From positions 1 through 25,453 of IMG/VR virus record IMGVR_UViG_3300009184_000192: 25,453 nt of DNA; one strand, 5' to 3'. The notes beneath the pieces are model-generated. The model ran no database searches. It saw only the letters and a program-made list of their open reading frames with translations, and was not told the origin of the DNA. Below are positions 7,119-9,246 of this stretch, in pieces (the first letter of the stretch is position 1; every line of letters starts with the position of its first letter). This DNA comes from a virus. Both the position numbers and the translations under genes were made by a program.

Positions 7119-7397
7119 TTAGATTGCTTCGTTGTTTAGATAGGTAACACCCTTGCGAGTGCTAACATTAGCCCCTAAAGCCCTTAGACGGCTTTTAGTG
7201 GTCGGAGTTGACCAACGGCGTAGAGTGTCGGTGTTAGTCATTACAAAACCAGTGCCACCATTTACATCGGCTATGTGGTTGCCGTGTAGGAATACTGCAC
7301 AATTTACATCGTCAATAGGTCGTACTGATGTATTGCCTGATTGCCAAGATTTACGATTGTAAACAGCGTTAAGCATTTGTTGTTCAATTTTTCTCAT
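7119..7397 (-). CDS. Conserved T7-like early-type protein (92 aa)
   Basis: Starts MRKIEQQMLNAVYNRKSW and ends with a segment TPTTKSRLRALG then TRKGVTYLNN. This pattern of N-terminal helix, strand with VFLHGNHIADV, then TTKSRLRALG is one I remember in small proteins of many podoviruses and siphoviruses, without a known role. It is basic, unlike most neighbours, so nucleic acid binding is possible. The ribosome binding site is TTGGAG, 8 bases from ATG. It is the first gene after the hammerhead at 7435-7486; its leader begins at the cleavage site. Confidence 0.8.
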   Translation of the reverse strand: MRKIEQQMLNAVYNRKSWQSGNTSVRPIDDVNCAVFLHGNHIADVNGGTGFVMTNTDTLRRWSTPTTKSRLRALGANVSTRKGVTYLNNEAI

Positions 7398-7434: not shown

Positions 7435-7486
7435 GACTAAGACACCCTCTCGAGTGTTTCGGGTATTGAACCCTCATCAGTTAGTC
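7435..7486 (-). ncRNA. Hammerhead ribozyme, type I (copy 1)
   Basis: Read on the minus strand, all parts of a hammerhead are present. Stem I is GACUAA (7486-7481) with UUAGUC (7440-7435). The core is CUGAUGA (7480-7474). Stem II is GGGU/ACCC (7473-7470 and 7464-7461) with a 5-base loop. GAAA (7460-7457) follows. Stem III is six pairs closed by the GNRA loop GAGA (7451-7448), ending in U16.1 and C17 at 7442-7441. Cleavage is predicted between 7441 and 7440. The ends lie in stem I, which makes it type I. The first base belongs to the stop codon of the upstream gene. Confidence 0.93.
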
Positions 7487-7677
7487 TATACAGTCTGACC
7501 CCAAACCTCCGCTAAGTCAATATCTGATACCAACTCATCAAGTGACTGGGTGTCTAACCCCTCCAGTATATCTTCCTCCAACATTAACAAATTTTCCAGC
7601 AGTTGCTCCCTTGTGAATGTTTTCCACTGGATTAACTCACTTCTGAGAATGGTTTGAATCTTTTCTTGCTTGGTCAT
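7486..7677 (-). CDS. Small acidic helical protein (63 aa)
   Basis: A helical, acidic protein with leucine-rich spacing (LLENLLMLEEDILEGLDTQSLDELVSDIDL) and no recognised family. ATG 7677 has the ribosome binding site AAGGGAG in the same TAGATAAGG-type leader found before three other minus-strand genes. Its TAG stop (7486-7488) supplies the first base of the hammerhead at 7435-7486, so ribozyme cleavage leaves this message with a compact structured 3' end. Function unknown. Confidence 0.72.
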   Translation of the reverse strand: MTKQEKIQTILRSELIQWKTFTREQLLENLLMLEEDILEGLDTQSLDELVSDIDLAEVWGQTV

Positions 7678-7700
7678 AATATTACTCCCTTATCTAATGA

Positions 7701-7862
7701 TTAAATAATAACTGCCTTCCAATCAGAGCCTTCGCCCGTCATTACTTTACAGTAGTCCTGATATTGTGACCATGTAATTTTAGCGTGTAAGACCCAGCGA
7801 GATTTGTTTAACAGGTCTTTTTCCCACCAAAGTATTGCTACTGATTTGCGTTCGTATGTCAT
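7701..7862 (-). CDS. Small Trp-rich protein (53 aa)
   Basis: A 53-residue frame starting MTYERKSVAILWWEKDLLNK and ending SDWKAVII. It has five Trp residues and a basic N-terminal half. The ribosome binding site AAGGGAG lies in the leader GTAGATAAGG (7874-7883), and the leader itself begins 32 bases upstream at the cleavage site of the hammerhead at 7889-7940. Spacing to its neighbours is as expected for a real gene. It is not recognised, and it was found by hand translation. Confidence 0.65.
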   Translation of the reverse strand: MTYERKSVAILWWEKDLLNKSRWVLHAKITWSQYQDYCKVMTGEGSDWKAVII

Positions 7863-7888
7863 TTTAAATACTCCCTTATCTACTGTTT

Positions 7889-7940
7889 GACTAAGACCCT
7901 ATTTCTAGGGTTTCGGCTCATTAAGCCTCTTCAGTTAGTC
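7889..7940 (-). ncRNA. Hammerhead ribozyme, type I (copy 2)
   Basis: On the minus strand: stem I is GACUAA (7940-7935) with UUAGUC (7894-7889). The core is CUGAAGA (7934-7928), where the variable seventh position is A. Stem II is GGCU/AGCC with a 5-base loop (7927-7915). GAAA (7914-7911) follows. Stem III is six pairs closed by the GNRA loop GAAA (7905-7902), ending U16.1 C17 at 7896-7895. Cleavage is predicted between 7895 and 7894. The UAA stop of the upstream gene (7937-7935) forms half of stem I. Stems II and III differ from copy 1 with compensating changes. Confidence 0.93.
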
Positions 7941-8192
7941 TTCGTAAACACCCAGTTCACCGCCATTTATCCACTCAGCGTGAAGACCAAATTTGCTGAG
8001 TATGTCTGTGATTACTGGCGATACACCAAACTCCCAGTCTTCCCGCATATAAGCGTAGTAGTCACAGAATTTGTAACTGTCAGCCTCTTCAGCGCTGATT
8101 GCAAAGTGTTCCATATCGCTACGCTGATAGGTTGGTACGCCAGCGTTTTGTAGAGCCTGTAATGCTTTTTTGTATTTAGTGATTGTTTTCAT
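7935..8192 (-). CDS. Hypothetical early protein (85 aa)
   Basis: The first leftward gene after the central control region. It starts MKTITKYKKALQALQNAGV, giving a basic helical N-terminus, followed by an acidic aromatic segment (CDYYAYMREDWEFG) and a short end (GGELGVYED). It is not recognised. The ribosome binding site AAGGA sits in the leader element CAGTAGATAAGG (8200-8211). Its stop codon TAA is built into stem I of the downstream hammerhead, so ribosomes finishing this gene would disrupt the ribozyme fold until they leave. Confidence 0.75.
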   Translation of the reverse strand: MKTITKYKKALQALQNAGVPTYQRSDMEHFAISAEEADSYKFCDYYAYMREDWEFGVSPVITDILSKFGLHAEWINGGELGVYED

Positions 8193-8491
8193 TTTGTTTC
8201 CTTATCTACTGTTGTTGAGAATGATTCTTATTTACTAATTGGTGTTGCCTGTTGCGATGAATTCAGTCTGAGGCTTTGTCGATTATCTGTCTAATGATTT
8301 ATTACTATCGTTGTTTATAAACCAATAGTCTAAAACTATTTATCTAAAACGACCCGCTAGCCCTTTGTTTATATAGAAAATTGCGTTCGTAAACAGTTAA
8401 GGGCTAAGTATCATCTCAGGCTAAAACAGCTCTAAAGCCCTGTATTGCAGTCTAAACAGTATCTCAGGGTAAACCCTAGTATGTCTGTGTT

Positions 8492-8577
8492 GTTAGTGTC
8501 TACTAACTTAATTCTGAGCTGTGGAATGTTAGTAATGACTAACTTTCTAGAGCTGTGAAGTGTTAGTGATGACTAAC
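8492..8577. repeat. Three tandem dyads GTTAGT-N4-ACTAAC
   Basis: Perfect 6-base inverted arms around 4-base centres occur at 8492-8507 (centre gtct), 8528-8543 (aatg) and 8562-8577 (gatg). Start-to-start distances are 36 and 34 bases. The second and third copies also share flanking AGCTGTG. Regular spacing of about three helical turns and conserved arms with variable centres suggest binding sites for a dimeric protein, or origin iterons. Confidence 0.7.
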
Positions 8578-8644
8578 TTAGTCCCTGCTATATAGGTGCA
8601 TCACCGCAACACACACTTGCCCTGTATAGAACTACAGTGTCATA

Positions 8645-8691
8645 AATACAACACTATATAATTTGGTATACTGTTGCGCTAATACAACACT
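8645..8691. repeat. Direct repeat AATACAACACT (two copies)
   Basis: Identical 11-base copies lie at 8645-8655 and 8681-8691, 36 bases apart, the same period as the dyad array just upstream. A degenerate third copy (AAACAACGCT) is at 8701-8710. Between them is TTGGTATACTG. On the minus strand the first copy supplies the TTGTAT of a weak leftward promoter match. The role is unknown; a protein-binding array is likely. Confidence 0.45.
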
Positions 8692-8729
8692 GTGGTATAG
8701 AAACAACGCTGTAGAATGACACAGATATT

Positions 8730-8745
8730 GTAAGTAAGCACTTAC
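8730..8745. promoter_or_regulatory. Dyad GTAAGT-N4-ACTTAC related to the site at 13004
   Basis: Arms GTAAGT (8730-8735) and ACTTAC (8740-8745) surround AAGC. Its first 13 bases, GTAAGTAAGCACT, recur exactly at 13004-13016, just after the second rightward promoter. It differs from the GTTAGT/ACTAAC array by one base per arm, so the same or a related protein may bind both. Confidence 0.5.
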
Positions 8746-8911
8746 TAACATAGGGGGGGATGGGGTAGACTAATGTTATTTATAATGGCGGAGCAGCATA
8801 GACATACAAAAGAGTAAAATAGGACTTATGCCAACACAGACCTAAGTAGTTGATAATAAAAGATAAAATAGACAAGATTGTTTATAATGGAAAATGCTCA
8901 CCTCTGAAGGA

Positions 8912-8980
8912 GGGTCTGCGGAGGATAACACTGTTAAGGTAGCCCCGCTGTCTAACACAATCTGTGCAGTCGATAGACCC
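8912..8980. other. Foldable segment closed by GGGTCT/AGACCC
   Basis: The outer stem GGGTCT (8912-8917) pairs with AGACCC (8975-8980). Inside are GCGG (8918-8921) with CCGC (8945-8948), the hairpin TAAC-ACT-GTTA (8926-8936), and an alternative stem GTCTA/TAGAC (8950-8954 with 8974-8978). It is not a tRNA, because no T or anticodon arm fits. It lies upstream of the rightward promoter, so it would need another transcript or act as DNA. Confidence 0.3.
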
Positions 8981-9018
8981 CATTAGAAGTGCTTTAAACA
9001 CTGTTTATAAAATAATGC

Positions 9019-9047
9019 TTGACAGAATCACGAAAGTATGCTAAAAT
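9019..9047 (+). promoter_or_regulatory. Strong sigma70 promoter for the rightward late genes
   Basis: TTGACA (9019-9024), a 17-base spacer, TAAAAT (9042-9047) and an extended -10 TGC directly upstream (9039-9041). Transcription should start near 9054, giving an untranslated leader of about 190 bases before the terminase gene at 9247. Its closeness to the host consensus indicates use of host RNA polymerase. Confidence 0.88.
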
Positions 9048-9087
9048 CGCTTTACAAGTGAAAAGCACACAATAAAGATACTGTACA

Positions 9088-9155
9088 GTCCCCTTCGGGA
9101 CGACAAGTTATAGCGCCCTGTAGCAAGGGGAACAACAGCCAACAGGCGTTCCCCT
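9088..9155 (+). promoter_or_regulatory. Structured untranslated leader with two hairpins
   Basis: Hairpin 1 is GTCCC (9088-9092) with GGGAC (9097-9101) around loop CTTC. Hairpin 2 is AGGGGAAC (9126-9133) with GTTCCCCT (9148-9155) around a 14-base loop. TCCCCTT in hairpin 1 (9089-9095) is exactly complementary to AAGGGGA (9125-9131), so a third, mutually exclusive pairing is possible. TCCGATAGC is repeated at 9157-9165 and 9179-9187, and eight Ts lie at 9214-9221 before the ribosome binding site. Switch-like control is inferred. Confidence 0.5.
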
Positions 9156-9246
9156 CTCCGATAGCGAACAACGAATCTTCCGATAGCACTCTATAGTATT
9201 AGTAGGGCTTTAGTTTTTTTTATGTCTCCTTAAAGGATAAAGACTC

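Follow-up and report, generated by a model that had tools for sequence, protein, structure and literature searches.

It was found that the early, leftward operon of an uncultured tailed phage contains two elements that, by sequence and structure, are complete type I hammerheads. Each of them starts at the stop codon of the upstream gene and is followed by the ribosome binding site (RBS) of the next gene. The two elements probably cut themselves in the cell and thereby split one long message. In the reading preferred here, to which I give a probability of about 0.8, active type I hammerheads would process the early mRNA without any protein, while the stop codons would keep ribosomes out of the catalytic core. 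The processing idea itself is likely, but not its outline new: Perreault et al. (2011, PMC3088659) had put forward mRNA processing by tandem phage hammerheads. New here are a uniform, largely uncatalogued type I subfamily of phage hammerheads with a coupling between loop II and the flanks of stem I, and a conserved early-operon position combined with embedded stop codons and avoidance of the reading frame that runs through the core.

Two hammerheads in a leftward operon

The analysed stretch of DNA (the window; 25,453 nt) is the IMG/VR virus record IMGVR_UViG_3300009184_000192. Among the genes in this 25.5-kb record are those for DNA polymerase, primase/helicase, terminase, portal protein and major head protein. 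The DNA polymerase has its nearest match (53%) in Pelagibacter phage HTVC103P. The leftward operon includes the replication genes, and about 1 kb of non-coding sequence separates it from the divergent terminase/structural operon. The hammerheads are placed after genes 1 and 3, at the start of this early/replication operon, where a previous reading of the sequence alone (the sequence-only reading) had located an early region. They lie 454 nt apart and enclose a two-gene block, the 53- and 63-aa ORFs (Table 1). A DNA similarity search of the region against phage records gave no match, and the sole match of the 85-aa protein was in a near-identical contig of the same phage. The non-coding stretch between the divergent operons (8193-9246) has a 30-nt repeat family (at 8480, 8516, 8550 and 8722) and a long imperfect inverted repeat, and is probably a control region.

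Table 1. Hammerheads and neighbouring features of the window, in 5' to 3' order of the minus strand
Feature	Position	Strand	Remarks
85-aa ORF	7935..8192	-	gene 1 of the leftward operon; no family match; stop UAA 7937-7935 = stem I nt 4-6 of copy 2
A(-1), copy 2	7941	-	5' of stem I
Hammerhead copy 2, type I	7889..7940	-	consensus core and three helices
Stem I, copy 2	7935-7940 paired with 7889-7894	-	GACUAA/UUAGUC
Core, copy 2	7928-7934	-	CUGAAGA
Stem-loop II, copy 2	7915-7927	-	GGCU-UAAUG-AGCC
GAA, copy 2	7912-7914	-
Stem-loop III, copy 2	7896-7911	-	ACCCUA-GAAA-UAGGGU
C17, copy 2	7895	-	predicted cut 7895/7894
A(+1), copy 2	7888	-
SD of 53-aa ORF	7877-7871	-	AAGGGAG
53-aa ORF	7701..7862	-	gene directly after the copy 2 cut
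63-aa ORF	7486..7677	-	stop UAG 7488-7486; its G = stem I nt 1 of copy 1
A(-1), copy 1	7487	-	5' of stem I
Hammerhead copy 1, type I	7435..7486	-	consensus core and three helices
Stem I, copy 1	7481-7486 paired with 7435-7440	-	GACUAA/UUAGUC
Core, copy 1	7474-7480	-	CUGAUGA
Stem-loop II, copy 1	7461-7473	-	GGGU-UCAAU-ACCC
GAA, copy 1	7458-7460	-
Stem-loop III, copy 1	7442-7457	-	ACACUC-GAGA-GGGUGU
C17, copy 1	7441	-	predicted cut 7441/7440
A(+1), copy 1	7434	-
SD of 92-aa ORF	7409-7406	-	GGAG
92-aa ORF	7119..7397	-	phrog_554, unknown function; gene directly after the copy 1 cut

Both hammerheads are present on the minus strand at the places given by the sequence-only reading. Each has a 6-bp stem I, a 4-bp stem II with a 5-nt loop, a 6-bp stem III with a tetraloop, and a C at the cleavage site. 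The core C3-U4-G5-A6-N7-G8-A9 / G12-A13-A14 / A15.1-U16.1 / H17 is matched at all positions in both copies, and three helices surround it, with stem I open. The differences in stems II and III between the copies, which had been quoted as compensating changes, are correct. The single-strand fold of copy 2 has a z of -3.35. A covariance model (R1) of 49 other phage copies, from which the window copies were left out, gave 71.6 bits (E=1.6e-16) for copy 1 and 68.8 bits (E=1e-15) for copy 2.

A finder whose criteria were the core plus three helices gave 263 matches across 165 phage loci and 0 matches on the reversed sequences of the same loci. The 100% pairing of the sequences chosen in this way is partly circular because the finder requires pairing to select them; the scan with stems I and III free, described below, is the independent test. 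The model Hammerhead_1 of Rfam (RF00163) is likewise of type I, but neither window copy reached its gathering score (34 bits) in a scan of the window. The sole result of a permissive Rfam scan, a type III match, was in the wrong register and was rejected. A coding function of the ribozyme elements was also rejected; the frames are wrong and stops lie inside.

A uniform subfamily of phage hammerheads

Is this pair an isolated case? A pattern with the stem I of the window matched 70 viral contigs, and a relaxed pattern matched at least 120. Since both patterns fixed parts of stem I and thereby favoured UAA/UGA there, the main statistics are based on a third scan, in which the core and a U-N-N-A-U stem-loop II were specified while stems I and III were free (at least 120 contigs). 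Among the matches listed for this third scan, 129 of 133 are complete type I hammerheads. Of the 121 distinct copies among them, 120 have a stem I of precisely 6 bp, made from about 50 different sequences, and an A stands on both sides of stem I in 120 of 120. The proposal of selection on structure is thus supported both by these 129 matches, obtained with stems I and III unspecified, and by the operon position, which is kept in more than 40 relatives.

The loop II sequence goes together with the flanks of stem I. When all loci are taken together, a U-N-N-(N)-U/G loop II is accompanied by A/A at positions -1/+1 in 339 copies and by A/G in 6 (n=345), and a GNRA loop by a pyrimidine at -1 with U at +1 in 11 of 11. 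This joint change of loop type and flanks indicates that loop II touches stem I at its ends. The covariation points to the kind of tertiary contact needed for fast cleavage; it is a loop II/stem I contact that makes natural hammerheads fast (PMC3088659).

The hammerhead models of Rfam miss almost all of this phage subfamily. In one set of 8 loci, 3 phage copies pass the gathering score of RF00163, and no Rfam match was found in 16 further loci holding at least 21 copies. The shortfall lies with the model and not with the chemistry, and therefore the copies are filed under the hammerhead class and not under RF00163. The gap suggests that many phage ribozymes are unannotated.

A variant of the core was also observed. 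An extra base between A9 and stem II is U in 12 of 12 distinct copies, with any base allowed in the search (L008:4795-4850(+), L023, L034, L036, L042, L057, L068, L083, L209 and L225). The viroid hammerhead CChMVd carries an extra A at the corresponding site and is a precedent for this variant.

When the relaxed pattern was run against 84,980 bacterial and archaeal species genomes, one contig matched. Thus, the element is essentially confined to free phages. The single match (L169:3800-3856(-)) lies in a Daejeonella MAG contig of 129.8 kb, which is possibly a phage contig binned with its host.

More than 40 related loci (terminase about 50-97% identical to that of the window) have a ribozyme where the leftward operon starts, often immediately 5' of a homologue of the 92-aa gene, and stems II and III differ but are compensated. 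One of the contigs (L067) represents the same phage as the window (99%) and has the same two copies; no further copies were found in its whole 37.6-kb record. The numbers per record vary. Many records hold a single copy, and one 39.8-kb record (G002, locus L117) holds 14 hammerheads on one strand. These are densest in its early part, flank the RNA polymerase gene on each side, mix UNNNU-loop and GNRA-loop forms, and are absent from the last 10 kb (the region below 10 kb). Over all loci, 165 pairs of adjacent ribozymes lie on the same strand and 0 on opposite strands, with a median spacing of 535 nt, the length of one or two small genes. Copies are also present in cultured phages: Methylophilales phage MEP301, Pelagibacter phage HTVC019P, HTVC131P, HTVC022P, Agrobacterium phage OLIVR1 and the Flavobacterium elemo phages.

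Stop codons, reading frames and downstream genes

In the window, stem I begins at the upstream stop codon as the sequence-only reading described, with UAA inside stem I in copy 2 and the last base of UAG in copy 1. That reading had also expected related phages to place their ribozymes at stop codons, and this is the case. With positions counted from the first base of stem I, an upstream ORF ends at -16 to +21 in 83.2% of 352 copies, compared with 8.8% of random same-strand sites. The relation is real and widespread, and the arrangement that had been called unusual is the normal one within a large subfamily of phage hammerheads. With weighting over 233 unrelated upstream proteins, 17.3 stops lie before -30, 1.0 at -30 to -17, 50.5 at -16 to -4, 57.0 at -3 to -1, 54.5 at 0 to 6, 32.6 at 7, 17.6 at 8 to 21, and 2.5 beyond. 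The stops in use are UAA at -3, UAG at -2, UAA in stem I, UGA of CUGA, and UAA/UGA in loop II. Thus, the fold supplies stops in all three frames. In cultured phages, the stop is at +18, +7, -11, -16 or -22 in some and at -30 to -131 in others. The stop at +18 is the loop II stop of MEP301 (L172:291-722), where the annotated MEP301_gp02 ends inside the ribozyme, with coding sequence through the core.

Could the overlap be nothing but gene packing, with mRNA-processing elements overlapping stops merely since phage genomes spare no bases? In one annotated phage, MEP301, 44 of the 53 gaps between same-strand genes do not exceed 16 nt, a share equal to that of the ribozymes for which a stop lies nearby. 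Such tight packing is normal for phage genes, and therefore stop proximity alone proves little. The relation to stop codons is a real and general feature, but dense gene packing explains most of the closeness of the stop. As the whole account, however, packing is possible but unlikely, since it predicts equal use of the frames. In the set unbiased in stem I, among the matches listed, the genes entering the ribozyme use the three frames at 18:38:10 (66 unrelated clusters, p=1e-4), and the avoided frame is the one that crosses the core. The pooled set agrees (50:70:20, weighted, p=1e-6). Packing also leaves unexplained why, in the same unbiased set and among the matches listed, the triplets at the 5' edge are stops more often in-frame (33/132) than out-of-frame (26/264, p=9e-5); in-frame stops inside stem I are enriched. 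Selection against longer protein tails, and not against ribosomes in the core, could account for the avoided frame.

The downstream side is equally regular. A Shine-Dalgarno (SD) sequence, an ATG and an ORF follow within 160 nt in 184 of 206 copies, compared with 244 of 1095 random same-strand sites, which upholds the view that the cleavage site precedes the next RBS. The median distance from the cut to the ATG is 31 nt. In the window, the predicted cuts fall 5' of AAGGGAG for copy 2 and of GGAG for copy 1, at 32 and 43 nt from the ATG of the next ORF, respectively. Most of the downstream genes are short (median 91 aa) and unrelated (214 clusters among 333 proteins), and a few of them encode RNA polymerase, DNA polymerase, anti-restriction proteins, invertase or integrase.

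Probable processing of early mRNA

In the preferred reading, the leftward early/replication transcript of a virulent tailed phage would be cut after genes 1 and 3 without a host protein, either during or after transcription. The upstream message would end just past the stop codon with two hairpins and a 2',3'-cyclic phosphate. The downstream message, with a 5'-OH at its start, would have a short leader rich in A (32 and 43 nt) and its own RBS. A polycistronic early transcript would become one- or two-gene messages with uniform, stable ends. Since residues that the ribozyme requires (A-1, G1, the stem I strand, the core UGA and loop II) would double as stops in whichever frame the upstream gene is read, translation would end at or before the 5' edge and ribosomes would rarely cross the core. 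The analysis establishes the sequence, the structure, the covariation, the conserved position and the statistics on stops and frames; cleavage in the cell, stable products and a part played by excluding ribosomes are what I infer.

How would the ribozyme fold within the message? In a secondary-structure model, which ignores tertiary contacts, the mean population of stem I is 0.21 with 60-75 nt of native flank and 0.78 for the ribozyme alone. Native flanks were not found to favour stem I over shuffled flanks (0.21 vs 0.20, p=0.69), and of the two flanks the upstream one weakens stem I more. Because stem I is weak with native flanks, its formation is a natural step at which ribosomes or upstream RNA may act, in either direction.

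The sequence-only reading went further and proposed that ribosomes at the stop codon would block folding, and that cleavage may wait for the end of upstream translation. In such a model, a terminating ribosome would hide the core along with the 5' strand of stem I, the cut would occur only once the upstream gene is free of ribosomes, and the ribozyme would serve as a translation sensor. Relative to the edge of the ribozyme, the stops concentrate at -3, -2, +3 and +7, within the footprint of a terminating ribosome, and both the avoidance of the through-core frame and the stronger effect of the upstream flank would suit this idea. However, simple exclusion of ribosomes from the core together with tight packing predicts the same pattern, termination is brief relative to the lifetime of an mRNA, and the flank effect could equally mean that translation helps folding by preventing mispairing with coding RNA. 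Such gating is therefore doubtful. The broader form of it, a natural translation-gated ribozyme in which a stop codon within the catalytic fold, in any frame, licenses self-cleavage of early mRNA at numerous gene junctions in unrelated virulent phages, is put forward as a speculation with the odds clearly against it.

RtcB-type ligases join 5'-OH and 2',3'-cyclic phosphate ends, the kind of ends that hammerheads would leave. Paired cuts might thus free the 454-nt segment with the 53- and 63-aa genes, and host RtcB might close it into a circular mRNA. The 165 same-strand pairs with their gene-sized spacing would fit, and type I hammerheads make circles in animal retrozymes (PMC7229834). Yet the many records with a single copy argue against circles, as does the finding of Perreault et al. 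that tandem arrays gave no spliced or circular products when these were looked for (PMC3088659), and I regard this outcome as very improbable. A selfish or decaying element without a role for the phage would be at home beside many unrelated genes (the 214 downstream clusters), but it is scarcely credible given the single match among the species genomes, the same place kept over deep divergence with compensated stems, the lack of oppositely oriented pairs and the strict link to RBS and stop. A mobile element as the main explanation was rejected on the genome scarcity, the conserved position and the pair orientation.

The proposed processing has a functional analogy in phage T7, where RNase III cuts between the early genes and yields stable messages with hairpin 3' ends. 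RNase III differs in being a protein enzyme, in leaving 5'-phosphate and 3'-OH ends, and in having no stop-codon design. In E. coli, a hammerhead ahead of the RBS (RiboJ) raised the transcript about 2-fold and the protein 2- to 10-fold (PMC6206723). RiboJ likewise lies just 5' of the RBS and gives a standard 5'-OH leader, but it is a synthetic part placed after a promoter rather than after a stop codon. With regard to retrozymes and viroid-like circular RNAs, the setting observed here is that of phage operons and not of satellite or retroelement repeats.

The closest precedent is the tandem hammerheads that flank prophage genes, which were proposed to process polycistronic mRNA to operon or single-gene lengths; they cut a phage-type polycistronic RNA of about 2 kb in vitro, and one array cuts in E. 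coli (PMC3088659). For an early mRNA of haloviruses HF1/HF2, the mapped 5' end is no more than 3 nt away from the site of hammerhead cleavage (PMC3088659). Common to the tandem hammerheads and those described here are several ribozymes per transcript, located between phage genes and flanking single genes or short blocks, and the early region of a lytic virus is shared with the halovirus case. In contrast, the earlier hammerheads were reported mainly from prophages near integrases, belong to types I, II and III, and often have a pseudoknot, whereas those described here are of one rigid type I design (6-bp stem I, 4-bp stem II, U-N-N-N-U loop, A/A flanks), occur in probably virulent phages and are tied to stop codons. 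The term "stop codon" is absent from the text of Perreault et al. (2011; PMC3088659). No account of hammerheads overlapping stop codons was found in the mostly open-access literature, although an earlier description is possible; the overlap of stop codons with catalytic residues raises the question of an interplay between translation and RNA catalysis. The role of hammerheads in phages has been a standing question since 2011. Cultured and uncultured phages repeat the same design here: stop codon, ribozyme, A-rich leader, RBS and start codon. Since this design is clear and recurs at conserved early-operon positions, the role is directly testable.

The single match in the 84,980 species genomes speaks against a prophage setting, yet the pelagiphage carriers possess an integrase. 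Three pelagiviruses (L173:2948-3008, L174:2658-2720 and L280:2297-2359) have a copy with A at the cleavage site. These copies sit in the long non-coding interval that precedes the MarR and integrase genes; an ATG comes directly 3' of stem I, and often no annotated gene end is nearby.
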